Shown piece after piece: positions 14,676 through 32,519 of a stretch of 64,000 bases of DNA (position 1 is its first letter; each line of letters starts with the position of its first letter). Where the stretch lies: assembly GCA_028707085.1 (NCBI GenBank), contig JAQTUW010000012.1:1-64000 (forward strand), written 5' to 3'. Under the pieces are notes generated by a model. It saw only the letters and a program-made list of their open reading frames with translations, made no database searches and was not told the DNA's origin. The position numbers and the translations under genes were made by a program. This stretch comes from Methylococcales bacterium (GTDB lineage Bacteria > Pseudomonadota > Gammaproteobacteria > Methylococcales > Methylomonadaceae).

Positions 14676-14861
14676 ATAGTCGGGTTGAGTGAGTCGCAAA
14701 AATCGCCTTTCAGACCAGTGTTGCGACGATGCCGTGTTTCGCTCCAGGCCCTGCAATGCGATTAGCACTCCCTGCGAAAAGTAAATATAATACATATAGC
14801 TTGCCCAAACGCCTGCTTGATTGTTAAAGTAGCAGGATTTACTGTGTACCCTGGTGTTAAT

Positions 14862-15905
14862 ATGTTCAAACGAATTCGTGGCCTTTTTTCTAACGATTTA
14901 TCGATCGATCTGGGGACGGCAAATACGCTGATTTATGTCCCGGGCCAGGGAATTGTTCTTAACGAGCCATCCGTTGTCGCCATTAAGGAAGACAAGGTTC
15001 GGGGCCAGAAAACCATAGCCGCCATCGGCGACGACGCCAAAAAAATGCTGGGCCGCACGCCGGGCAATATTACCGCCATCCGTCCGCTAAAGGACGGTGT
15101 CATCGCCGACTTTGCCGTTACCGAACGCATGTTGCGGCACTTTATTAAAAAAGTTCACGAGAACAAGCTGTTGCGGCCAAGTCCTCGCATCCTGATCTGC
15201 GTGCCCTGCGGCTCCACGCAGGTGGAAAGGCGCGCCATCCGTGAATCGGCGGCCATGGCCGGCGCCCGCGAAGTCTATCTGATCGAGGAACCCATGTCGG
15301 CTGCCGTCGGCGCCGGCCTGCCGGTTGAAACCGCCCACGGCTCCATGGTGCTGGACATTGGCGGCGGCACCTCGGAAGTCGCGGTGATCTCTCTGAATGG
15401 CATCGTCTATTCGGCTTCGGTCAGAATCGGCGGCGACCGTTTCGACGAATCCATCATCAGCTATGTGCGCAGAAATTACGGTACCCTGATCGGCGAGTCC
15501 ACCGCCGAAAAAATCAAGCACCAGATCGGCGCCGCCTACCCCGGCAGCGAAGTCAGGGAAATGCAGGTGACCGGCCGTAATTTGGCGGAAGGCGTGCCGC
15601 GCAGCTTTACCTTAAATAGCAACGAAATCCTCGAAGCCCTGCAGGAACCGCTATCCGGCATCGTCAGCGCCGTCAGGGTCGCTCTGGAACAGACGCCGCC
15701 GGAACTGGGCGCGGATGTCGCCAGTCGCGGCATCGTCCTCACCGGCGGCGGGGCGCTGTTAAAGGATATAGACAGGCTGATTTCCGAAGAAACCGGTTTG
15801 CCGGTCTACATAGCCGAAGATCCGCTGACCTGCGTCGCCCGAGGCGGCGGCATGGTGCTGGAAATGCTGGATTCCAAGGGCGCTTCGGCTTTTTCACTGG
15901 AATAG
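14862..15905 (+). CDS. mreB: Rod shape-determining actin-like protein MreB
   Basis: Bacterial actin that forms membrane-associated filaments directing the elongasome. Actin-fold ATP motifs are clear: [13 protein letters not shown] near the N-terminus, [14 protein letters not shown] mid-protein and [13 protein letters not shown] near the C-terminus. The 347-residue length from ATG at 14862 ([13 protein letters not shown]) is canonical; a longer frame from 14817 adds residues not found in the family. It is the first gene of mreBCD, separated from mreC by about 250 bp with no gene. Confidence 0.97.
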
Positions 15906-16201
15906 GCGCAAACCGGTGTTTCCGGATTTATCCGCCTTGCGCTTCCAGGGCCGTTAGCGCCAGCCACTGTTTCCGGTTCTGGGCGGGCGGCCAAGCTGCC
16001 GGAATTTGCCGTGCAAGACCCTGCAAACATTTTAACTCAGGCGGGTCAGGCATCTTTGGAAAAGGCGGATACCTGTGGTGTGGCCGGCGTCCCTGTCCAG
16101 CGGACAAATCGTTCAGGCCCCAGCTTTCTGCACAGACTATTTGAGGTTCAGCCATAAAACTTTTATTCGCTACAGGCCCATCTCTTAATACCCGACTGCT
16201 G

Positions 16202-17095
16202 GTGGCGGTACTGGCTTCGGTCACGTTGCTGGTTCTCGATTACCGGGGTTCGCGTCTGAATTCCTTCCGCTCTCTGCTGGCTTTTGCGGTTTATCCGCTG
16301 CAATCTCTGGCCAGCCTGCCGGTTGACACTTACCAGGCCCTAACCGGTACGGTCATTTCCTATGTCGAACTGCAAAAGGAAAACAAGCGGCTAAAGGATG
16401 TTCAACTGATCAACGACGCCAGACTATTAAAACTGGCTGCGCTGGAAAAGGAAAACATCCGTCTTCGGCTGCTGCTGGAAAACTCGTTTCAGCTTGGGGA
16501 GCAGGTGCTGATTGCCGAACTGCTGTCAGTCAAACTGGAGCCGTATGAACATACCGTGGTGGTCAACAAGGGTTCCCGATTCGGCGTACACCCCAAACAG
16601 CCGGTGCTGGACGCCAACGGCGTCGTCGGGCAGGTGATAAGAGTCTTGCCCAACAGTTCGGAAGTCATGCTGATTACCGATCCCGATCACGCCATTCCGG
16701 TCGAAGTCAACCGCAACGGGCTTAGAACCATCGCCTTTGGCACCGGCCAGCCCAACCGTCTGCACCTGCCGTTTCTGGCCAATAATGCCGATGTGGCGCC
16801 CGGCGACTTGCTGGTTACCTCCGGGCTTGGCGGCGGCTTTCCGGCGGGTTATCCGGTGGCGGTGGTCGATAAATTTGAAGCCAGACCGGATAAATCCTTT
16901 GCCAATATCTATGCCACGCCAAAGGCGCAACTCGACGCCAGCCGGGAGTTCCTGATCGTCTGGAGCGATACCAATCCGGTGGTGATCGATCAGCACGCCC
17001 AGACGCCGCAACAGCAATTCTCATTGCAGCCGCCACCCCAGTCGCCGGTCAGTCAGCCGATAGACAAAAAGCAGGGCAAACATGCCGGACAATAG
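16202..17095 (+). CDS. mreC: Rod shape-determining protein MreC
   Basis: Bitopic elongasome scaffold: an N-terminal membrane helix, a periplasmic coiled coil (about residues 45-85, ELQKENKRLKD), then the beta-barrel MreC domain with RFGVHPKQPVLDANGVVGQV. The coordinates use the first standard start, GTG at 16202, but that begins inside the membrane helix. The frame is open upstream to TGA at 16142, and GAGG at 16143-16146 lies seven bases before an ATA codon at 16154. Reading from there gives KLLFATGPSLNTR before the helix, just as MreC proteins normally begin. The true start is therefore probably AUA at 16154. It overlaps mreD by 14 bp. Confidence 0.94.
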   Translation: MAVLASVTLLVLDYRGSRLNSFRSLLAFAVYPLQSLASLPVDTYQALTGTVISYVELQKENKRLKDVQLINDARLLKLAALEKENIRLRLLLENSFQLGEQVLIAELLSVKLEPYEHTVVVNKGSRFGVHPKQPVLDANGVVGQVIRVLPNSSEVMLITDPDHAIPVEVNRNGLRTIAFGTGQPNRLHLPFLANNADVAPGDLLVTSGLGGGFPAGYPVAVVDKFEARPDKSFANIYATPKAQLDASREFLIVWSDTNPVVIDQHAQTPQQQFSLQPPPQSPVSQPIDKKQGKHAGQ

Positions 17096-17570
17096 CAGAC
17101 TGACCGTCGTCTATTTTATCGCCACCATTTCCGCCGCCATGGTCTTGCGGGTCATGTTGCTATGGCCGGAGCTGGCGCCTTTCAATCCGGACTGGATAGC
17201 ACTGGCTCTGATTTACTGGTCGATGGCGTTTCCGGAGCGTTTCGGCGTGTTTACCGCCTGGACGGTGGGTCTGCTGACGGATGTGCTCACCGGTCGGTTG
17301 CTGGGCCAGTATGCGCTGATCTATGCATTGATCGCCTATTTCAGCATCAAGGAACATCGCCGGTTGCGGCAGTTTCCGGTCATACAGCAATGTCTGTTTG
17401 TATTTTTCTGTCTGCTGGTTTCGCAAAGCATCATTTTCGGTACGGAAATCATGAAAGCCGGCAACCGGCTGACTCTGGAATTCTGGTATCCGGTGCTGAC
17501 CGGCACACTGGTCTGGCCCGGGGTATTCTGGGTATTGCGCAACATCAGAATCATGGCGCGCATTGCATGA
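17082..17570 (+). CDS. mreD: Rod shape-determining protein MreD
   Basis: Small polytopic inner-membrane protein of the elongasome, 162 residues with about five hydrophobic segments. The family segment GLLTDVLTGRLLGQYALIYALIAY (quoted only as GLLTDVLTGRLLGQ, about residues 63-76) is plain. The start overlaps the mreC end, indicating translational coupling. In related genomes mrdA (PBP2) follows directly; here a 5.7-kb CRISPR-Cas segment intervenes. Confidence 0.93.
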   Translation: MPDNSRLTVVYFIATISAAMVLRVMLLWPELAPFNPDWIALALIYWSMAFPERFGVFTAWTVGLLTDVLTGRLLGQYALIYALIAYFSIKEHRRLRQFPVIQQCLFVFFCLLVSQSIIFGTEIMKAGNRLTLEFWYPVLTGTLVWPGVFWVLRNIRIMARIA

Positions 17571-18094
17571 TCTCCGGCTGACAATCGTCCGCCAAAAAGT
17601 CGAAATGTAATCCCGATGTGTTTCACATATTGACCCGCTCCCTGCGGAAAGGGGAAACCGCTCAGTAAGAAAGTAAGAAATGTTCCCTTCAATTCCCGGC
17701 TCTCCGAGTGTGGCCGGTCACGTCAAACCGTTTCCGGAGCACATTATTTCCGGGCAGGTGTCAATGTTTACAGGATGTAGCCGATAGCGTTTTGGTTCAA
17801 AATGGCTGGAGCCGAAAGCCGAAGCTGTTCAGGATTCGGTTTCAATATCCGCTTTATTATAAAAAATCGTGCTGAAGCCAAATTTCAAAATGGAAAATAA
17901 CTCAACTGTGCTTGAGTTGAATGATTGTCCGAAAAAAACTTACCAAGCTCCCGCCGCCATTAAATTGGCAGGCCGGGTAGCGCCAAATCATTGTCATAAC
18001 CTTGGTCGTATCGTCGATTTATGCGATGGCCGGGCCGCGAACAGTTCGATGCACTGGGTGTCCTGGCCGGAAATAAGCCGCGTTAGGAGAACAA
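17571..18094. other. Left junction of the CRISPR-Cas insertion
   Basis: 524 bp without a convincing gene. Its last part, 18021-18086, encodes in one frame GREQFDALGVLAGNKPR then TAG eight bases before casA, which looks like a protein C-terminus; a neighbouring frame (from about 17890) also shows coding-like composition. This may be a frameshifted relic of an upstream gene such as cas3, but I cannot identify it. casA has a good ribosome binding site, TTAGGAG, at 18083-18089. Confidence 0.4.
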
Positions 18095-19606
18095 ATGAGC
18101 AATGAGAACCGCTTTAACCTGATTGATGAACCGTGGCTGCCTGTCGTCGATGTCGGGCCTGTCAGTTTGCGGGATATCTTCAGGCATCATCACTATCGCG
18201 CCCTGGGCGGCAATCCGCTACAGAAAATTGCCGTCACCAAACTGCTGCTGACAATAGCCCAGGCAGCGGTTACTCCCGGCGATGATGAAGAATGGGCCGC
18301 GTTAAAGCCGGCAGGGATGGCGGCCGGATGTCTGGCTTATCTGGAGTGCTGGCGCGAACGGTTCTGGCTGTATGGCGAACAGCCGTTTTTGCAGATGCCG
18401 GCTATTTCTGCGGCAAGCGTACAGCGTTTTGGGGCTGTGCAGACGGAAGTCGCGACAGGCAATACCACGGTGTTGACCCAGATACAAAGCGAAACAGCGC
18501 TGACGGATGCCGAAAAAGCCCTGCTGATCGTGGTGTTGATGGGTTTTGGCCTGGGCGGTAAGAAAACCGATAACACTGTGGTTCTTTCGCCGGCGTACAC
18601 GGCAAAATCGAATGGCAAGGGCAAGCCGGCGACCGGAAAACCGGGGCCTAGCCTGGGATACAAAGGCTTTCTGCACAGTTTTTTGCAGGGCCGGCGCATA
18701 GTGGAAACGTTATGGCTGAATTTGATCACCCTTAACCAGTTGCAGCAATTGCGCCTATACGGCAAGGGGGTGGGAACGCCGCCCTGGGAAACCATGCCGG
18801 TTGGCGAAGATTGCGAGGTCGCGCAAGACCTGCGCGACAGTCTGATCGGCAGATTGTTGCCGTTTTCGCGTTTCTGCCTGTTGACGGAAACCGGTTTGCA
18901 CTATTCCGAAGGCATAGCCCATCAGGGCTACAAGGAGGGCGTGGTCGATCCAAGCGTGTCGGCCGATTTCTCGGGCAAAGAACCCAAAGCCATCTGGGTC
19001 GATCCGGAAAAAAGACCGTGGCGTTTTTTAACGGTGCTGTTGAGCTTTCTGGAACAGTCTGCCCAGCCGGGTTTCGATTGCCAGCAATTGCGTTTTGGCC
19101 TGGAACGCGCCAGAACCCGGGCCGAGACCCTTGGCGTCTGGTCGGGGGGATTGCGGGTCAGCAGTAATGCCGGCGAACAGTTTGTTTCCGGCACGGATGA
19201 TTTTGTGGAATCGGTCGTCATGCTGCCTGAAAACATTCCGGGCGAAATCTGGTTCAGCTGTTTAAAACTGGAAATGGCCGAACTGGATCATCTCTCCAGA
19301 ATCGTTTACAGCGCCACCCTCAATTATTACAAAACCCAGAACATGGATGGCAAAAACCGGGCAGGGCAGGCAGGCAATCTGTTCTGGCGACTCTGCGAAC
19401 ATGAGTTTCAAAATTTAGTGCATGTTTGCGCCGAAATAAACCGGACGCAAGCCCTGCGCAAAAAATTCGCGAGTTTTGTAAATCAGGCTTATGACCTGTT
19501 CTGCGCCAGGGACACTGCGCGGCAACTGGATGCCTGGGCCAGAAACCGGCCCAATCTGGGTAAATACCTGCAGGATCAAATCAAATATCACGAGGCTCAT
19601 GCATGA
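18095..19606 (+). CDS. casA: Type I-E Cascade large subunit Cse1 (CasA/Cas8e)
   Basis: Large subunit of the type I-E CRISPR surveillance complex; it recognises the PAM and in complete systems recruits Cas3. The N-terminus NRFNLIDEPWLPV and the following DIFRHHHYRALGGNPLQKIA are hallmark Cse1 sequences. The 503-residue length equals E. coli CasA, so the gene appears intact. It ends in an ATGA overlap with casB. No cas3 lies upstream, which is unusual, since cas3 normally precedes this gene. Confidence 0.93.
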   Translation: MSNENRFNLIDEPWLPVVDVGPVSLRDIFRHHHYRALGGNPLQKIAVTKLLLTIAQAAVTPGDDEEWAALKPAGMAAGCLAYLECWRERFWLYGEQPFLQMPAISAASVQRFGAVQTEVATGNTTVLTQIQSETALTDAEKALLIVVLMGFGLGGKKTDNTVVLSPAYTAKSNGKGKPATGKPGPSLGYKGFLHSFLQGRRIVETLWLNLITLNQLQQLRLYGKGVGTPPWETMPVGEDCEVAQDLRDSLIGRLLPFSRFCLLTETGLHYSEGIAHQGYKEGVVDPSVSADFSGKEPKAIWVDPEKRPWRFLTVLLSFLEQSAQPGFDCQQLRFGLERARTRAETLGVWSGGLRVSSNAGEQFVSGTDDFVESVVMLPENIPGEIWFSCLKLEMAELDHLSRIVYSATLNYYKTQNMDGKNRAGQAGNLFWRLCEHEFQNLVHVCAEINRTQALRKKFASFVNQAYDLFCARDTARQLDAWARNRPNLGKYLQDQIKYHEAHA

Positions 19607-20127
19607 GTAGCGAAGCGCATCAATCCGATAAAAGCGAACGTTTTGTAGAATTTACCATCCGCCAATGCCTGGCCGATAAAGGTTTGGTCGCCGCTTTAAA
19701 GCGCGCCGACAATCCGGCCACCGAATTTCAGAGCTGGGCGTATCTGGCCGGGTTTTCCATCGCCCTGGACAATGACAAAAAGCGTCTGCCTTACGCCGCG
19801 ATTGCTGCGGCCATCGCCCGGGCCGGATCGGAACGCAACGGCCGAACCGGGATAGGCCGCGCCATAGCCTTATGCTATGAAGAAGGCAATAACAGCGATC
19901 AGGCCAGAATCAAACTGCGCCGCCTGCTGTGCTGCGATACGGTCGAGGACGTTTGCGGAATACTGAGGCCGCTGTTTGGTCTGATCGATTCCAGAGTGGC
20001 GATAAGCCTGGATTATGTCCGGCTGCTCTCAAATTTAAGGTATTTTGAGACGGACAGTCAGGCCATTAAACGTCAATGGGCTCAGGATTTTTACAATCAT
20101 GCCATGGAAGATAGGGAGGTCTTATGA
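19603..20127 (+). CDS. casB: Type I-E Cascade small subunit Cse2 (CasB)
   Basis: Small alpha-helical subunit, two copies per Cascade, that stabilises the displaced DNA strand. Family features include FQSWAYLAGFSIALD and GIGRAIALCYEEGN, followed by FRRLL-like IKLRRLLCCDTVED. The 174 residues are close to typical. ATGA overlaps join it to casA before and cas6e after, so the three form one translationally coupled unit. Confidence 0.88.
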   Translation: MSSEAHQSDKSERFVEFTIRQCLADKGLVAALKRADNPATEFQSWAYLAGFSIALDNDKKRLPYAAIAAAIARAGSERNGRTGIGRAIALCYEEGNNSDQARIKLRRLLCCDTVEDVCGILRPLFGLIDSRVAISLDYVRLLSNLRYFETDSQAIKRQWAQDFYNHAMEDREVL

Positions 20128-20756
20128 CGCAGGATCAGGATGACTTGTATGCCAGTACGCTTAGACTATCGCGCAATGATGTCAAAGCCCTTAATATTAC
20201 CGATGCCTATTCATTGCACCGGGTGGTTTACGATTTATATAGCGATGTCCGCAACCGGCAGCAAAAGCAGGCCAGTACGCCTAGCGGTATTTTATACGCC
20301 GACAAAGGCGGCGATATCAATCATAGGCTGATTTTGCTGCTGGCGGAAAGGCAGCCCAATCCCAATCCGGTTTATGGGAAAGTCAGGACGTTGAAAATTC
20401 CCCAGCAATTTTTGCAGCATCGGCGCTATGCGTTTACGGTAACCGTCAATCCCAGCAGGCGCGACAGTCAGACCGGCAAAATTATCGCTGTTCGCAGCCG
20501 GGAAGCCATTCGCGACTGGTTTATCGAACGGGCGGAAAGTTCCTGGGGTTTCGGTGTTAATCCCGTCAATTTGCAAATCGACAAATTGAGCGTACAAAGT
20601 TTCAAAAAGGACGGTCAGAGCATTACCCATGGCAGCGCCGGTTTAAAAGGCGAATTGCAGGTCATGGATCAGGCCCGGTTTATGCAAAGCTTTCGGCAAG
20701 GCATAGGCCGGGGCCGAGCCTTTGGTTTTGGTCTTTTGCAAATTGTACCGATTTAA
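20124..20756 (+). CDS. cas6e: CRISPR endoribonuclease Cas6e
   Basis: Metal-independent endoribonuclease that cuts the repeat hairpin of pre-crRNA and stays on the crRNA 3' handle. The N-terminal DAYSLHRVVYDLYS holds the expected catalytic histidine (His32), and the C-terminal glycine-rich loop GIGRGRAFGFGLLQI is typical. The 210-residue length is normal. In E. coli this gene follows cas5; here it lies between casB and cas7, a rearranged order. It should process the mini-array at 22834-22984, whose repeats can form the needed CCCCAC/GTGGGG stem. Confidence 0.9.
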   Translation: MTQDQDDLYASTLRLSRNDVKALNITDAYSLHRVVYDLYSDVRNRQQKQASTPSGILYADKGGDINHRLILLLAERQPNPNPVYGKVRTLKIPQQFLQHRRYAFTVTVNPSRRDSQTGKIIAVRSREAIRDWFIERAESSWGFGVNPVNLQIDKLSVQSFKKDGQSITHGSAGLKGELQVMDQARFMQSFRQGIGRGRAFGFGLLQIVPI

Positions 20757-20794
20757 ATGATCCATATTGTTATTGAATAATACAGGACACAAGC

Positions 20795-21949
20795 ATGTAC
20801 AACCCGCTTAGAAATACCCGCATCGAGTTTCATATCCTGCAATCTTTTCCAGTAACCTGTCTGAATCGCGACGATGTCGGCGCGCCCAAAACCGCAATGG
20901 TAGGCGGTAGCACCCGCGCCAGGGTCAGCTCGCAATGCTGGAAGCGTCAGGTCAGGCTGGAAATGCATGAGCTGGGCGTCAGGCATGGCAGTAGAACCAA
21001 GCACATTTCCAGGCTGATTGCCGATGCCTGCATGGCCAAAGGCGCAACGCCGGAGCGGGCAAAAGCCTGCGGCGATAAATTCGAACAGGTTTTCATCAAG
21101 AAAAAGGAAGAAAAAAAGTCTAAGAAAGGCAAGGAATATCAGGATGCCGAAATGGTCGAGGGAGAGACAGATGCCGCTGCCGAAAAATCGGATACCCTGT
21201 TGTTCCTGAGTCCCAAAGAGGTCAACATCGTCGCGGAGGCCTTTTTGGCAAAAGGCTTTGAGCCGGAGTTGGTGATTACCCAGAAAGACGCCAAAAAACA
21301 GGCAAAAGAGGTTGCCGGGCTGATAGGTGATATAAACGTAGCCGTGGATGCGCTGGATATCGCCCTGTTTGGGCGGATGGTCGCGCAGGCTTCCGAACTC
21401 AACGTCGAAGCGGCCAGCTCATTCGCACACGCCATTTCCACCCACAAAGTCAGTAACGAGGTCGAGTTCTTTACCGCGCTGGACGATTTGCAGGACGATC
21501 CCGGCGCAGCCCACATGGGTAGCCTGGAATTCAACTCCGCAACCTATTACCGCTACATCAGCCTGGATCTGGGTCAGCTTTACCAGACGCTGGCCGGACA
21601 AAATTTGCCGGAATCGGTGGCAGTGTTTACCAAGGCATTGTTTATTGCTGTGCCGGCCGCCCGGCAAACCACTCTGTCCGGCGCTTCGCCCTGGGAGTTC
21701 GCCAAAATTCTGGTCAGAAACGGCCAGCGCCTGCAGGCGCCGTTTGAAACCGCCGTTAAGGCCGAGGAAGGTGGTTTCCTGCGGCCCAGTATTAGTCATT
21801 TGCAAACCTATTTGAGTAAAAAGGAAAAGCTGTGCGGCTCATTATTCGGCAAAATTGCCGAATACAATTTTGGCGAAGACGAAAATTTCAGTATTGACGA
21901 TCTGGTTACGGCGCTACAAAAACATGCAAAAATCAGTGCGCATGCCTAA
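20795..21949 (+). CDS. cas7e: Type I-E Cascade backbone Cas7e (CasC)
   Basis: RAMP protein forming the six-copy backbone that holds the crRNA spacer. The start NTRIEFHILQSFPVTCLNRDD is characteristic (residues 6-26; quoted in part as EFHILQSFPVTCLNRDD), followed by GGSTRARVSSQCWKRQVR. At 384 residues it is slightly longer than E. coli CasC, owing mostly to a Lys/Glu-rich insertion around 95-130 (KKKEEKKSKKGKEY). ATG at 20795 lies 38 bp after cas6e. Its end overlaps cas5e. Confidence 0.92.
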   Translation: MYNPLRNTRIEFHILQSFPVTCLNRDDVGAPKTAMVGGSTRARVSSQCWKRQVRLEMHELGVRHGSRTKHISRLIADACMAKGATPERAKACGDKFEQVFIKKKEEKKSKKGKEYQDAEMVEGETDAAAEKSDTLLFLSPKEVNIVAEAFLAKGFEPELVITQKDAKKQAKEVAGLIGDINVAVDALDIALFGRMVAQASELNVEAASSFAHAISTHKVSNEVEFFTALDDLQDDPGAAHMGSLEFNSATYYRYISLDLGQLYQTLAGQNLPESVAVFTKALFIAVPAARQTTLSGASPWEFAKILVRNGQRLQAPFETAVKAEEGGFLRPSISHLQTYLSKKEKLCGSLFGKIAEYNFGEDENFSIDDLVTALQKHAKISAHA

Positions 21950-22658
21950 CCCCTATCTATTACTCTGGCTGGAGGCGCCATTGCAATCCTGGGGGAGCGA
22001 CTCCAAATTCGGTCGGCGCGACACCCTGAATTTTCCCACCAAATCCGGGGTGTTGGGGTTAATTTGCTGCGCATTGGGCGCGGGCGGCGAACAGCGCGAA
22101 TTGCTGGCGGAATTCGCCGGACTGCGGCAAACGGTGCTTTCTTTTGTGCGCTGCCCGGAAAATGCCGACAAGAGCGCCCGCCTGACCAGGGAGCCGCTAT
22201 TAAGAGATCTGCATATGGTTGGCAGCGGCTATGATGATTGCGACCCCTGGGCCGGCCTGTTGATTCCCAGAACCCGCGAGGGTAAAAAAGCGGTGGGAGG
22301 AGGGGCTAAAATGACTTACCGCTATTATTTGCAGGATGCCTGTTTTGCGGTGCTGCTGCAAGTACCTGCCGGCAGGGAAAGAAACATTGTAGAGGCCCTG
22401 ATCAATCCGGTCTGGGATGTCTATCTGGGCCGCAAAAGCTGCGCACCCACTGATTTTATCTATCGCGGCCGTTTCCTGAATCAGGCCGACGCCATGGCGC
22501 AGGCCCGGCAGATCGGCAATGAAAAACTGCGGCGGGAAGATTTTCGGGTAATCGATGGCGAGCATGAAGGTGAGGTGCTGACATTAATGGATGTGCCTTT
22601 GCAGTTTGGTGAGCGTAAACAGTACCGCGACCGGCGGGTTACGCTGGTGTCAGTTTAG
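21942..22658 (+). CDS. cas5e: Type I-E Cascade Cas5e (CasD)
   Basis: RAMP subunit that binds the crRNA 5' handle and contacts Cse1. The N-terminus YLLLWLEAPLQSWGSDSKF is the Cas5e hallmark, and RDTLNFPTKSGVLGL follows. About 238 residues, normal length. I chose ATG at 21942 (MPNPYLLLW), which overlaps the cas7e stop by eight bases; ATG at 21924 is an alternative adding six residues. It is the last cas gene: cas1 and cas2, which usually follow, are missing, and 175 bp of possible leader separate it from the array. Confidence 0.92.
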   Translation: MPNPYLLLWLEAPLQSWGSDSKFGRRDTLNFPTKSGVLGLICCALGAGGEQRELLAEFAGLRQTVLSFVRCPENADKSARLTREPLLRDLHMVGSGYDDCDPWAGLLIPRTREGKKAVGGGAKMTYRYYLQDACFAVLLQVPAGRERNIVEALINPVWDVYLGRKSCAPTDFIYRGRFLNQADAMAQARQIGNEKLRREDFRVIDGEHEGEVLTLMDVPLQFGERKQYRDRRVTLVSV

Positions 22659-22833
22659 AATGGGGCTTGCCGGTCACCAGCCTCGCAGCGGTGGGGAGCG
22701 CGAATTGTTGACAAGATCGTCACGACTCATTATCTTTTTAAACCCATCCGGGCGGATGGCTCTCCGGCGTGGACATTACCCCGTTCTGCATATGCCCGAA
22801 CTCAATGCTGATAACCAGTGTTTTCGCTGGCAG
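22659..22833 (+). promoter_or_regulatory. Putative CRISPR leader
   Basis: 175 bp between cas5e and the first repeat. It contains TTGTTGACAAG near 22704-22714 followed by the AT-rich TTATCTTTTTAAAC about 17 bp later, a plausible weak promoter. Position and array polarity support a leader role. No strong consensus is seen. Confidence 0.4.
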
Positions 22834-22984
22834 GTCTTCCCCACGGCTGTGGGGGTGTTTCCTTAGCATTGAATGCTGTAATGCTACCAGCTCAGTTTTC
22901 CTCACAGCCGTGGGGGTGTTTCCCATGTCTATCTGCGTCATCGGAGCGAAGAATGGTTTCCTCACGCCAGTGGGGGTGTGCAAT
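22834..22984 (+). CRISPR. Three-repeat type I-E mini-array
   Basis: Three 29-bp repeats at 22834-22862, 22895-22923 and 22956-22984 with two 32-bp spacers, an exact 61-bp period as in type I-E. Repeat 1 reads GTCTTCCCCACGGC then TGTGGGGGTGTTTCC, with a CCCCAC/GTGGGG stem. Repeat 2 has a few changes (CCTCACAGCC). Repeat 3 is degenerate and loses its TTTCC end, as expected of the leader-distal terminal repeat. Orientation is therefore leader on the left, next to cas5e. No further repeat is found at the 61-bp positions before 22834 or after 22984. Confidence 0.9.
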
Positions 22985-23326
22985 CCGAGGATTCAAAAGG
23001 TGTCCATCAGCCATCTGCATCAGAAACAAAGTTTTGCCTGATTCCTTGCCGCCTTCACAAATGCTACAATAATCGATTTACTGCATTCCCAATACAGCCC
23101 TAGCAATATCGCCATGACGCAATAGCGCAAAAATCCCGGACTAGCCTGCGGCAGCCTATAATGCTTAAAAAACTCACAGACTTACATCTGTTTCAGTACG
23201 ACTATCTTGCTGGTTAAACCCATTAACGCCCCGGTCTCAGGAGTAATCAATCCTAAAAAATGAAAAATTTTTTAGTCGTCAAATATTTGGGAATACCTGC
23301 GCTAAATCGGGCAGGTCTGTACATTT
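22985..23326. other. Right junction of the CRISPR-Cas insertion, mrdA upstream region
   Basis: 342 bp without a gene. As mrdA is now 5.7 kb from mreD, a promoter for mrdA-rodA-mltB would be expected here; I see only AT-rich candidates around 23205-23290 and no clear consensus. Confidence 0.4.
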
Positions 23327-25183
23327 ATGGATAGAAAATTCGCCATCAAAGATGCTCTGGCGGAAAACCGGGTATTTTTAAGCCGCATAGTCACGGCCTT
23401 CATCCTGATTATTCTGCTGATAGCCGGTCTGATCGTGCGGCTGGCCTATTTGCAGATCGTCGGTCACGAGCATTACGCCACCTTGTCCAAGGACAACCGC
23501 ATCAAAATCGCGCCCCTGCCGCCGACCCGCGGCATCATTTACGACCGCCGGGGACGGATGCTGGCGCAGAATGTACCGACCTACAGCCTGGAACTGATAC
23601 CGGAGCAGATTAAAAATCTGGACGAGACCCTGGGGCAATTACAGCAGTTGCTGAGTATCCCGGACGAAAAAATCGAACAGTTCCAGAAACAGCGCAAACG
23701 CAATAAAACTTTTACCACTACGCCGCTGCTGCAAAACCTCAGCGAAGAGGATGTCGCCAAATTTGCCGTGGTCAGGCCTTATTTTCCGGGGGTGGATGTC
23801 TATGTGCGGTTGGTGCGGCACTATCCGTACGGTGATCTGGCCTCGCATGTGGTCGGTTATGTGGGCAGAATAAACGAACAGGAACTTAAAAGCCTGCCGG
23901 CCGCCGAATACCGCGGCACGGATTTTATCGGCAAGGTCGGCGTCGAAAAAAACTACGAAAGCCAACTGCATGGCACGGCCGGTTATGAAGAACTGGAAAC
24001 CAATGCCCAGGCCAGGACGGTCAACACTGTCGCCACAACCGAACCGGTAGCAGGAGCCAATATCTACCTGACGCTGGACATCGATCTGCAAAAAATCGCC
24101 TATGACGCTTTGGGCGAATATAATGGCGCGGCAGTCGCCATCGACATCAAAACCGGCGGTGTGCTGGTCTTCGCCAGCCGGCCCGGGTTCGATCCCAATC
24201 CTTTTGTCTCCGGTATTTCCGGCAGGGAATACAAGGCGTTGCAGGATTCGTCGGATCAGCCCTTATACAATAGGGCGTTACGCGGACTCTATCCCCCGGG
24301 ATCGACCATCAAACCTTTTTTGGGACTGGCCGGGCTGGAATACGGGGTAACCGATTTCGGCCACAGGCTGTTTTGCCCCGGCTATTACCGGCTGCCCAAT
24401 GTCGAACACAAGTACCGGGACTGGAAAAAATGGGGTCACGGCATGGTGGACATGAACGAAGCCATCACCCAGTCCTGCGATGTGTATTTCTACGATCTGG
24501 CGCTGGCGCTGGGGATCGATAAAATCCATGAATTTCTCGACGGCTTCGGCTTCGGCAAGCGTACCGGTATTGATCTGGTCGGAGAATCGGATGGTTTGCT
24601 GCCTTCCAAGCAATGGAAACGCAACAATCGCAATCAGGCCTGGTTTCCCGGCGAAACCCTGATTACCGGCATCGGCCAGGGCTATATGCAGGTTACGCCG
24701 CTGCAATTGGCCCGGGCTGTTGCGACGCTGGCCAATCGCGGCAGAGTCGTCAGCCCGCATCTGGTGGAGCAGATCATCAACGCCAACGACACGGATTCGA
24801 TAGAATTATCGCCGGATCAGGTCATCCCCTTGAAACCGCAGAATTTAGATAATATTATCCAGGCAATGACCAATGTCGTGCATGGCGCCCGGGGCACCGC
24901 CGGCAAGCTGGACAAGGCGGTTGGTTACCGGATTGCCGGCAAGACCGGTACCGCACAGGTTTTCACCATAAAGCAGGAAGAAAAATACAATGAGGACGCC
25001 ATCGATTTCCGCATGCGCGATCATGCCTTGTTCATCGCCTTTGCGCCGGCGGATGATCCGAAAATCGCGGTTGCCGTCATAGCCGAACACGGCGGGCATG
25101 GTGGTTCAGTGGCGGCGCCCATGGCTGGCGAGATCATAGACGCGTATTTGAATCCCAAAACGGACGGTCAGCATGAAAAATGA
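23327..25183 (+). CDS. mrdA: Penicillin-binding protein 2 (MrdA)
   Basis: Elongation-specific class B transpeptidase that crosslinks peptidoglycan with RodA. One membrane helix lies at about 20-42, then the pedestal domain with PTRGIIYDRRGRMLAQN. The transpeptidase domain has Ser326-x-x-Lys329 (GSTIK), SCD at 383-385 and KTGT at 539-542. The 618 residues are standard. It overlaps rodA by 11 bp. The operon partner mreD is separated from it by the CRISPR-Cas insertion. Confidence 0.96.
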   Translation: MDRKFAIKDALAENRVFLSRIVTAFILIILLIAGLIVRLAYLQIVGHEHYATLSKDNRIKIAPLPPTRGIIYDRRGRMLAQNVPTYSLELIPEQIKNLDETLGQLQQLLSIPDEKIEQFQKQRKRNKTFTTTPLLQNLSEEDVAKFAVVRPYFPGVDVYVRLVRHYPYGDLASHVVGYVGRINEQELKSLPAAEYRGTDFIGKVGVEKNYESQLHGTAGYEELETNAQARTVNTVATTEPVAGANIYLTLDIDLQKIAYDALGEYNGAAVAIDIKTGGVLVFASRPGFDPNPFVSGISGREYKALQDSSDQPLYNRALRGLYPPGSTIKPFLGLAGLEYGVTDFGHRLFCPGYYRLPNVEHKYRDWKKWGHGMVDMNEAITQSCDVYFYDLALALGIDKIHEFLDGFGFGKRTGIDLVGESDGLLPSKQWKRNNRNQAWFPGETLITGIGQGYMQVTPLQLARAVATLANRGRVVSPHLVEQIINANDTDSIELSPDQVIPLKPQNLDNIIQAMTNVVHGARGTAGKLDKAVGYRIAGKTGTAQVFTIKQEEKYNEDAIDFRMRDHALFIAFAPADDPKIAVAVIAEHGGHGGSVAAPMAGEIIDAYLNPKTDGQHEK

Positions 25184-26303
25184 AATGCGTCAGGAAAACT
25201 TTCAATCTCCTTCCCTGATAGGAAATGTATTACGCAAATTGCACTTTGATATTCCCTTGCTATTGGGCCTGCTGCTGATCTGCACCCTGAGCTTTGTGAT
25301 CCTCTATAGCGCCGGCGGTCAGGAAATACCCCTGCTGATACGGCACGCCACCCGCATGGGGCTGGCGCTGTTGCTGATGCTGGTGCTGGCGCAGGTCAAC
25401 CCGCGGCGCTTTCAAAGCTTCTCGGTGCTATTATTTAGCATTTGTGTGCTATTGTTACTGGCTGTGATGGTTATGGGGCAGATAGGCAAGGGTGCGCAAC
25501 GCTGGCTGGATCTGGGCGTGTTCCGCTTCCAGCCCTCGGAAATAACCAAAATCAGTGCGCCGATGATGATAGCCTGGTATTTGTCCGAACACCCCTTGCC
25601 GCCCAGTGCCAAACATGTCTCGATTGCCGTGGGTCTGCTCATCGTGCCCGTGCTGCTGATAGCCAAGCAGCCGGATCTGGGTACGGCGCTGCTGGTCGCC
25701 AGTTCCGGGGCTGCGGTGCTGTTCTTTGCCGGCCTGTCCTGGTGGCTGATGCTGGGCGCAGTGGCGCTACTGGCCTCGCTGACCCCGCTGCTCTGGCATT
25801 TTATGCGTGAATACCAGCGGAACAGGGTGCTGACTTTTATTAATCCGGAAGCTGATCCCATGGGCGCCGGCTACCATATCATCCAGTCGAAAATAGCTAT
25901 CGGTTCCGGCGGTATCAATGGCAAGGGCTGGCTGGGAAGCACCCAGGCCGAACTCGATTTTTTGCCGGAAAGTTCAACGGACTTTATTTTTGCGGTCTAT
26001 GCGGAAGAATTCGGACTGTTTGGCTGTGTCGGCCTGCTGTTGCTCTATCTGCTGGTGATCAGCCGCTGTTTTTACATTGCCGTTCAGGCCCAGGATACCT
26101 ACAGCCGGCTGCTGGCGGGCAGTCTGGCATTTACGTTTTTCGTTTATGTATTTGTCAATATCGGCATGGTGATAGGGGTGCTGCCCGTAGTCGGCGTACC
26201 CTTGCCCATGGTCAGTTACGGCGGCACATCCATGGTCACCCTGATGTCCGGTTTCGGCATCCTTATGTCTATCCATACTCATCGCAAACTGCTACCTGTA
26301 TAA
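25173..26303 (+). CDS. rodA: Peptidoglycan glycosyltransferase RodA (SEDS family)
   Basis: Polytopic SEDS glycosyltransferase that polymerises lipid II with PBP2. About ten hydrophobic segments are visible. Family motifs include WLDLGVFRFQPSEI, KQPDLGTALL, FLPESSTDFIFAVYAEE and GVPLPMVSYGGTSM near the C-terminus. Length 376 is normal. ATG at 25173 overlaps the mrdA end; a later ATG at 25185 is possible. Confidence 0.96.
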   Translation: MKNEMRQENFQSPSLIGNVLRKLHFDIPLLLGLLLICTLSFVILYSAGGQEIPLLIRHATRMGLALLLMLVLAQVNPRRFQSFSVLLFSICVLLLLAVMVMGQIGKGAQRWLDLGVFRFQPSEITKISAPMMIAWYLSEHPLPPSAKHVSIAVGLLIVPVLLIAKQPDLGTALLVASSGAAVLFFAGLSWWLMLGAVALLASLTPLLWHFMREYQRNRVLTFINPEADPMGAGYHIIQSKIAIGSGGINGKGWLGSTQAELDFLPESSTDFIFAVYAEEFGLFGCVGLLLLYLLVISRCFYIAVQAQDTYSRLLAGSLAFTFFVYVFVNIGMVIGVLPVVGVPLPMVSYGGTSMVTLMSGFGILMSIHTHRKLLPV

Positions 26304-26311
26304 TTCGACTC

Positions 26312-27325
26312 ATGAAACTAAAAACGATAATAAGCGCCACGCTACTGCCCCTGTTTGTGCTGAGTTTTCAGACGGCAAGCGCCGCCGTTCCGGAAACCCG
26401 GGCTTTTAACCGGTTCATAGAACAGATGGTGAACAAGCACGGTTTCGAGGAAGAAGCGCTCAGAAAACGTTTCAACGCCGTCGAAATTCAGCCGTCCATT
26501 CCGGAAGCCATGGCCGCGCCGGCGGAAGCCAAACCCTGGTTCGAGTATCGGGAAATCTTCATGACCGAAGACCGGATAGAGGCCGGCGTGAAATTCTGGC
26601 AGAAGAATGAACAGGTGCTTGGAGCCATCGAAAAAAAATACCGGGTTCCGGCGGAAATTCTGGTCGCCATTATCGGCGTGGAAAGCAAATACGGTGAGCA
26701 GGCCGGCAAATATCGGGAAATAGACGCGCTGTCCACCCTGAGTTTCGCCTACCCGCCGCGTAGCAAGTTTTTTACCAGGGAACTGGCCAGTTATCTGCTG
26801 CTGTGCCGCAAGGCGCATATCAATCCGATGAAGCCGGCTGGCGCCTATAATGGGGCCATGGGGCTGCCGCAATTTATGCCCAGCCGGTTCCAGAGTTTTG
26901 CCGTCGATTTTAATCATGACCATAAAAAGGATATCTGGAACGATAGCGCCGATGCCGCCGCCAGCATTGCCAGGTATTTGGCCCACCATGGCTGGCGTAG
27001 CGGTGAAGCTGTCGCCTTTCCGGTAAAAGCCCGGAGCGACGCCTATCGGGGAAAGCTCGATTCCAGTCTGAAACCGGATGTGACCATTGCTCAACTGCGC
27101 GCCCTGCAAGTCGAGATACCCTCGCAATTGCCGGATGCGGAAACCGTCAAGTTGCTCGGTTTTCAGCATGCGGGCGGCGAAGATCTGTGGATAGGCCTGC
27201 ACAATTTTTATGTCCTTACCCGGTATCATTCCAGTCCCTTGTACGCCATGGCCGTTTATCAGCTCAGCCAGGTCATAGCCGATCGGAAAAAGGCGTTTAA
27301 TTCCGCCGCCGAATTACAGCAATAA
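26312..27325 (+). CDS. mltB: Lytic murein transglycosylase B (MltB)
   Basis: Family 3 lytic transglycosylase that cleaves glycan strands to 1,6-anhydroMurNAc products. The signal peptide runs to about residue 24 (FQTASA); no lipobox cysteine is present, so the protein is periplasmic or soluble rather than lipid-anchored as in E. coli. Catalytic Glu124 sits in IIGVESKYGEQAG, followed by GAMGLPQFMPS. It follows rodA after 8 bp, completing the mrdA-rodA-mltB unit. Confidence 0.93.
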   Translation: MKLKTIISATLLPLFVLSFQTASAAVPETRAFNRFIEQMVNKHGFEEEALRKRFNAVEIQPSIPEAMAAPAEAKPWFEYREIFMTEDRIEAGVKFWQKNEQVLGAIEKKYRVPAEILVAIIGVESKYGEQAGKYREIDALSTLSFAYPPRSKFFTRELASYLLLCRKAHINPMKPAGAYNGAMGLPQFMPSRFQSFAVDFNHDHKKDIWNDSADAAASIARYLAHHGWRSGEAVAFPVKARSDAYRGKLDSSLKPDVTIAQLRALQVEIPSQLPDAETVKLLGFQHAGGEDLWIGLHNFYVLTRYHSSPLYAMAVYQLSQVIADRKKAFNSAAELQQ

Positions 27326-27330
27326 ACTTG

Positions 27331-32519
<5,189 letters not shown>

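Follow-up and report, generated by a model that had tools for sequence, protein, structure and literature searches.

Several described systems resemble a Cascade complex that lacks the nuclease Cas3, the condition found in the DNA analysed here: a stretch of 64,000 nucleotides (hereafter the window) from a methane-oxidising Methylococcales bacterium (Methylomonadaceae; assembly GCA_028707085.1, contig JAQTUW010000012.1), with five full-length type I-E Cascade genes at positions 18095-22658 and three diverged repeats downstream. Cas5-HNH and Cas8-HNH Cascades mostly occur without cas3, rarely with cas3 remnants nearby, and Cas5-HNH is the variant closest to type I-E; according to the available part of PMC10910872, these Cas3-free Cascades acquired another nuclease, of the HNH type. 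In contrast, the five Cascade proteins of the window show no nuclease domain, HNH included, in NCBIfam and Pfam profiles. CreR and CreTA elements use Cascade as a binder only, by means of degenerate repeats (accessible portions of PMC12737573, PMC9458426 and PMC8501985), whereas in the window no seed flanked by a protospacer adjacent motif (PAM) was found at the promoter of the cas genes or of a linked toxin. In engineered type I-E interference in E. coli, Cascade silences genes (PMC5109708, with cas3 knocked out, and PMC12235044, as far as the available text of both goes). There the Cas3-free Cascade is a laboratory gene-silencing tool and man-made, while the state of the window is natural and probably old. 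Complete type I-E systems, e.g. that of Methylobacter luteus (L089), share gene order, proteins and repeat type with the window, and the M. luteus Cas5e protein is 75% identical to its counterpart here. Unlike the window, however, they have kept cas3 and cas1-cas2 and mostly possess longer arrays of near-identical repeats.

The window locus is a deletion derivative of such a complete type I-E system. The explanation we favour, at roughly even chances, is that a nuclease-free, RNA-guided DNA binder has been kept by selection after the loss of Cas3. It starts from what is directly observed, i.e. the gene content, a cas3 stub, the position of the locus as an island and the conservation of the five proteins. 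Among the top-ranked open-licence PMC papers listed by searches aimed at it, none was seen to describe a type I-E Cascade that is natural, free of a nuclease and maintained by selection.

The Cascade genes and the cas3 remnant

The five genes lie on the forward strand: casA (Cas8e/Cse1, 503 amino acids (aa), 18095..19606; TIGR02547, 213 bits against a cut-off of 70), casB (Cas11e/Cse2, 174 aa, 19603..20127; TIGR02548, 62.8 bits), cas6e (CasE/Cse3, 210 aa, 20124..20756; TIGR01907, 154 bits), cas7e (CasC/Cse4, 384 aa, 20795..21949; TIGR01869, 314.6 bits) and cas5e (CasD, 238 aa, 21942..22658; TIGR01868, 184 bits; Pfam gives the Cas5 domain only). All five proteins score above the curated NCBIfam cut-offs and align with the greater part of the Pfam profiles and of the best PADLOC profiles, which confirms the full-length genes of an earlier sequence-only reading of this DNA. 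As to the translational coupling proposed there, the pairs casA/casB, casB/cas6e and cas7e/cas5e overlap, and cas6e and cas7e are separated by 38 nucleotides (nt) according to their coordinates.

The locus contains every component of a type I-E effector (Cas8e/Cse1, Cas11e/Cse2, Cas7e, Cas5e, Cas6e) and falls short of a whole type I-E system, with Cas3 reduced to a stub and I-E Cas1 and Cas2 not present beside Cascade. No cas3, cas1 or cas2 gene occurs next to Cascade on either side, judged from the list of open reading frames (ORFs) and from queries of the window with proteins of relatives (best E value of the cas1/cas2 queries only 0.76). The absence of these genes had already been stated from the sequence alone, but it overlooked that about 41 codons from the 5' end of cas3 survive, in decayed form, as a stub on the forward strand upstream of casA (17890..18012). 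In tblastn searches of the window with relatives' Cas3, residues 8-46 match positions 17896-18012 on the casA strand (E 1.9e-4, 44% identity). A Cas3 hidden Markov model of 16 relatives has the stub as its sole window match at E<=10 (15.8 bits; the maximum in 20 shuffled windows is 4.5), and the full Cas3 of one relative, searched against the whole genome at E<=10, matches nothing except the stub (E 9.1e-4, 46%).

The stub opens an in-frame ORF of 71 aa (17890-18105), for which no Pfam family was matched. The stop of this frame and the start of casA overlap, and the two may be translationally coupled. A 3' remnant of cas3 at 18040-18088, directly before casA, is not claimed (P of 0.04 to 0.6 in alignments against eight relatives).

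The window is contig C52 of a 3.016-Mb draft genome, and a draft in 73 contigs leaves room for a split system with Cas3 supplied in trans. We regard this as very improbable: the genome is 99.89% complete, the Cas3-HD profile finds no match over the cut-off (three matches at E up to 1, best 0.047), the Cas3-core profile gives five matches, all below its cut-off of 102 bits (the highest at 59.8 bits) and presumably to other helicases, the relative's Cas3 leads to the stub only, and the genome holds no copy of the repeat within three mismatches beyond the three in the array. A Cas3 elsewhere in the genome, one of the options of the sequence-only reading, is accordingly not borne out. Its proposed whole-genome check for cas1-cas2 and arrays yielded, apart from the lack of further repeats, Cas1 and Cas2 on another contig.

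These Cas1 and Cas2 proteins are encoded in two pairs on a contig of 17.6 kb without a repeat array (C64), as an orphan adaptation cluster cas2-cas1-cas1'-cas2' (L008, G000:C64, 11103-13443). Against the I-E Cas1 model (cut-off 215.6) one of the two Cas1 proteins scores 20 bits and the other has no match, and other models fit better; the second Cas1 (243 aa) matches the PADLOC profile 'Cas1, diverged variant, second in the loci'. RAMP proteins (PF03787) have a single match in the genome, below the cut-off (16 bits against 22.1).

Conservation of Cascade and decay of the stub

Conserved columns were defined as at least 90% conserved in 68 loci having cas3, all with the five Cascade genes and >8000 bases, drawn from the best 80 of 139 Cas5e relatives in named genomes. 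The window Cascade is changed at 15 of 504 such columns (rank 43 of 69), with 3/131 in casA, 7/57 in casB, 0/63 in cas6e, 2/155 in cas7e and 3/98 in cas5e, corresponding to ranks 24, 67, 1, 27 and 49 of 69. Only casB stands out, as the one loosened gene, though it may simply be fast-evolving. Its loosening agrees with the dispensability of Cas11 for silencing in E. coli, for which Cas8, Cas7 and Cas5 are indispensable (PMC12235044, available part).

The cas3 stub, in contrast, is changed at five of 13 conserved columns as aligned, and at six of 13 in an ungapped reading. The same columns show no change in 54, one change in 15 and two changes in two of 71 functional Cas3 proteins (72 distinct proteins were compared, one of which was misaligned, 13/13, and left out). 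The ungapped count refers to 51 Cas3 proteins selected by a text pattern and is biased at the positions that the pattern specifies. Compared with the 15/504 of Cascade, one-sided Fisher tests return p = 5e-5 for 5/13 and p = 3e-6 for 6/13; if the deletion starts just after the conserved Asn-His-Cys, 2/8 columns are changed (hand count from the ungapped alignment).

The five Cascade genes are free of stops throughout their 1509 codons. In simulations of neutral change, rates of 2%, 3% and 5% per site introduce on average 3.6, 5.1 and 8.3 stops into 1509 codons, and among 400 runs the share with zero stops is 14.5% at 1%, 2.3% at 2%, 0.5% at 3% and 0% at 5%. Because the stub looks decayed while Cascade is conserved and without stops, Cascade was probably kept after the loss of Cas3, and the conservation of residues, not just of open frames, speaks against mere stop avoidance inside an operon. 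Taken together with the divergence of the repeats described below, this suggests that the time since the loss of cas3 and adaptation would have sufficed for decay of Cascade, and that Cascade did not decay. This moderate evidence that a Cascade may have outlived its nuclease under selection is the new point of the analysis.

A plain relic, in which cas3 and cas1-cas2 were lost recently and an inactive Cascade has not yet decayed, is quite possible, if in our view doubtful. Gene loss combined with a three-repeat array is typical of decay, stop-free frames persist in the said proportion of simulations at 1% neutral change, the window branch is long and casB loosened, and searched genomes, phages, plasmids and viral contigs yield no spacer target. 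A recent loss is nevertheless at odds with a stub that looks more decayed than the Cascade genes (p from 0.026 to 3e-6, depending on the count), with a difference of 14% between repeats 1 and 2, which suggests that adaptation was lost long ago, and with the conserved residues retained in Cas8e, Cas6e, Cas7e and Cas5e. Of the early relic considered in the sequence-only reading, the loss of cas3 and cas1-cas2 and the drift of the array stand, but the word 'early' fits poorly to a stub that looks decayed beside a conserved Cascade.

Several points also weigh against a binder kept by selection. The stub is short, and the earlier placement of the breakpoint leaves p = 0.026 only. In a comparison of the window with 17 relatives, nine of 414 otherwise invariant columns are changed in the window, the fifth highest value of 18 (range 1 to 36), and the window branch measures 0.31 versus 0.11-0.22 in the nearest neighbours, at a placement support of 0.23. 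A direct test of the ratio of nonsynonymous to synonymous change (dN/dS) requires a close relative, and the search for one found none. Promoter-like sites at the locus are no more frequent than expected by chance, and at the stringencies used neither spacer has a target, whether in the own genome, in phages and plasmids or in viral contigs.

The mini-array and its spacers

The array, on the forward strand, consists of three 29-nt repeats (22834..22862, 22895..22923 and 22955..22983), spaced 61 and 60 nt, and two spacers of 32 nt (22863..22894) and 31 nt (22924..22954). The I-E geometry ascribed to it from sequence alone (29-nt repeats, 32-nt spacers) is not exact: spacer 2 is one base shorter, and the repeats have diverged, adjacent ones differing at 4 and 7 of 28 bases. 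The hairpin stem is intact in repeat 1, retained through one G-U pair in repeat 2, and retained in repeat 3, whose 3' end is degenerate; degenerate repeats with all stems still pairing are also what characterises CreR/CreTA. In 15 relatives with comparable arrays the first two repeats are identical (14) or differ at one base (1). As repeats 1 and 2 of the window differ at 4/28 bases, its array has apparently gone without renewal for a long time. Judged by eye only, the sequence immediately ahead of repeat 1 loosely resembles the end of the leader in relatives.

The 29th repeat base in the arrays of relatives is mostly C or T, and regulatory mini-arrays of relatives match sites after AAC or AAT, from which we infer AAY as the PAM. 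No good match to either spacer is present in the 64-kb window. BLAST of the whole array against phages returned six records at E 6, all of them attributed to chance: in five the match is to repeat 1, and in the sixth, Pseudomonas phage Y6, it covers 26 nt, mostly of spacer 2, at 92%. Against plasmids, 23 records were obtained (best E 3e-3), the listed rows of which span repeats at 68-72%, and no protospacer was found. In viral contigs no site agrees exactly with either spacer across its first 23 positions (every sixth position free). In 237 genomes of the family, searched with spacer 1, this spacer has no match with up to three mismatches elsewhere.

Within the own genome, AAY followed by the seed with at most one mismatch occurs twice per spacer, compared with none for reversed control patterns and about 1.8 per spacer expected by chance (own arithmetic). 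All these matches share 15-20 of 31-32 bases with the spacer at full length. The seed of spacer 2 (11 nt after AAT) is found at L172, where it extends over the start codon and the 5' flanking bases of a gene encoding an H-NS C-terminal domain (15/31 at full length), and that of spacer 1 (11 nt after AAT) at L170, upstream of a PEP-CTERM protein gene (15/32). Both sites are leads only, at about chance level. The spacer check of the sequence-only reading, aimed at host genome, plasmids and phages, has consequently brought chance-level seeds and no host-gene target. In E. coli, as few as 5 bp suffice for Cascade to associate with DNA, mostly next to an optimal PAM, and its binding to off-target sites is described as inert (PMC5904413, portion available). 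That a domesticated Cascade acts as a natural repressor of chromosomal genes, with L172 and L170 as candidate sites, is unlikely in our estimation. The regulator or silencer considered in the sequence-only reading gives the best fit to conservation without a nuclease, but the search for its target was unsuccessful.

A guide of the Cre type, in which the mini-array, like CreA or CreR, would direct Cascade to a promoter and thereby tie the host to a Cas3-less Cascade, is distinctly unlikely. Such elements typically have degenerate repeats in which the features required by Cas6 persist (PMC9458426 and PMC8501985, in their accessible parts), degenerate pairs follow directly after cas5e in four relatives (L047, L049, L063, L067), and pairs between cas3 and casA of relatives have spacers matching their own intergenic region. 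In the window, however, no AAY-flanked seed match (run of at least 6) to either spacer was detected at 14700-27400, so that neither the cas promoter nor any neighbouring toxin emerges as a target, though distant targets are possible; the only AAY-flanked entries in this range arise when spacer 2 is read one base earlier (runs of 7 and 6).

Relatives, gene order and ancestral state

CasA matches are present in 78 of 237 genomes of the family, and 74 of these 78 also have a Cas3-HD match (E 1e-6, anywhere in the genome and whatever the CRISPR type). The remaining four are the genome of the window (G000) and G168, G171 and G231, in which the Cascade contig (L072, L054 and L047, respectively) stops about 300-1030 bases upstream of casA. 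Around lower-scoring CasA matches, 40 stretches (not every match) were read, and 23 of them were treated as relatives of the window Cascade. The gene order of the window is found with all five genes in 17 of these and with four genes in L076; in L057, L062, L078, L079 and L081 only the part held by the contig is visible. Twenty of the 23 relatives have cas3 upstream (cut by the contig end in three), and the other three contigs end before cas3. The cas3 of L078 is cut by the contig end and, in addition, split into two frames.

Among the best 80 of 139 Cas5e relatives, a set overlapping the 40 stretches, casA is visible in 75 and cas3 lies upstream in 70 of these 75; the five casA loci without cas3 have just 80-1031 bases of contig upstream. 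One of them, L110, seems to represent the contig of L054 a second time, and the L054 contig opens with bases that resemble the end of cas3. The window is therefore the sole case of a truly absent cas3 among the loci examined. In this widespread I-E branch cas6e as a rule precedes cas7e, so that the placement of cas6e, pointed out as unusual in the sequence-only reading, does differ from E. coli but is ordinary here.

Several relatives possess degenerate repeats outside their arrays. In L046, L054, L063, L067 and L081, repeat pairs (a triple in L054), 61 nt apart, are located between cas3 and casA. The first spacer of each has a seed run of 14-16 nt (positions 6 and 12 free, with mismatches there) to a site in the same gap, which follows AAC in four cases and AAT in one. 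The best of 60 shuffles per spacer reaches 12 (L046, L063), 13 (L067, L081) and 15 (L054), the run of 15 in L054 being matched in length by a shuffle. No gap match was seen in L047, where the cas3-casA gap is cut by the contig end. These gap pairs resemble autorepressors of the CreR type within type I-E systems. Further degenerate repeats, their stems paired, occur inside the cas operons of many relatives, either singly (L045, L050, L053, L054, L058, L071) or as pairs (L046, L047, L049, L063, L067), and are located between cas6e and cas7e or near cas5e-cas1. They may be cutting sites of Cas6e in the cas mRNA; five spacers of the pairs were tested, and none matches its surroundings better than shuffles do.

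A GCTCTTTAACAA-like motif is present just after cas5e in L045, L046, L047, L050, L053, L054, L056, L071 and L080. It appears in most of the 15 post-cas5e gaps compared and in variant form in the rest, and the window has no visible copy of it. We take it to be a boxA antitermination motif.

Genomic setting

The locus forms an island of 5.76 kb (17571..23326) that separates mreD (17082-17570) from mrdA (23327-25183). In other genomes of the genus these genes are neighbours: mreD matched in 36 of 37 genomes, 30 loci were returned, one of them that of the window, and in all 29 others the mreD and mrdA alignments are 8-13 nt apart. An orthologous island in same-genus relatives is rejected, being absent from 29/29 loci read. 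The cas genes of the island are co-directional with the mre-mrd genes, and transcription of Cascade driven by the mre operon is possible, as judged from this arrangement. No repeat common to both island edges, direct or inverted, was found at 12 or more of 14 bases, and no long copy of the flanks is present in the window or in the few loci of the same genome and other loci compared, the remaining genome not having been searched. Between mreD and mrdA the ORF list contains cas genes and overlapping frames; no profile search for Tn7-like (CAST) elements was made.

Proposed history and mechanism

A complete type I-E system with the order cas3-casA-casB-cas6e-cas7e-cas5e-cas1-cas2-array would have entered the mreD-mrdA junction. 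Later, in an order of events that we infer, most or all of cas3 past the first ~40 codons and the entire cas1-cas2 would have been lost, and the remaining Cascade and mini-array were probably retained by selection. The short array transcript, if expressed and processed as predicted, would be cut by Cas6e into two CRISPR RNAs, carried by Cas8e, Cas11, Cas7 and Cas5 to DNA flanked by the putative AAY PAM. The bound complex would block transcription or replication without cutting, and what it silences could be an invader or a host gene.

If this explanation is true, a natural Cascade has outlived its nuclease, and the binding step alone would be worth keeping. The locus would then also provide a simple test case, with two spacers, one complex and no cutting.

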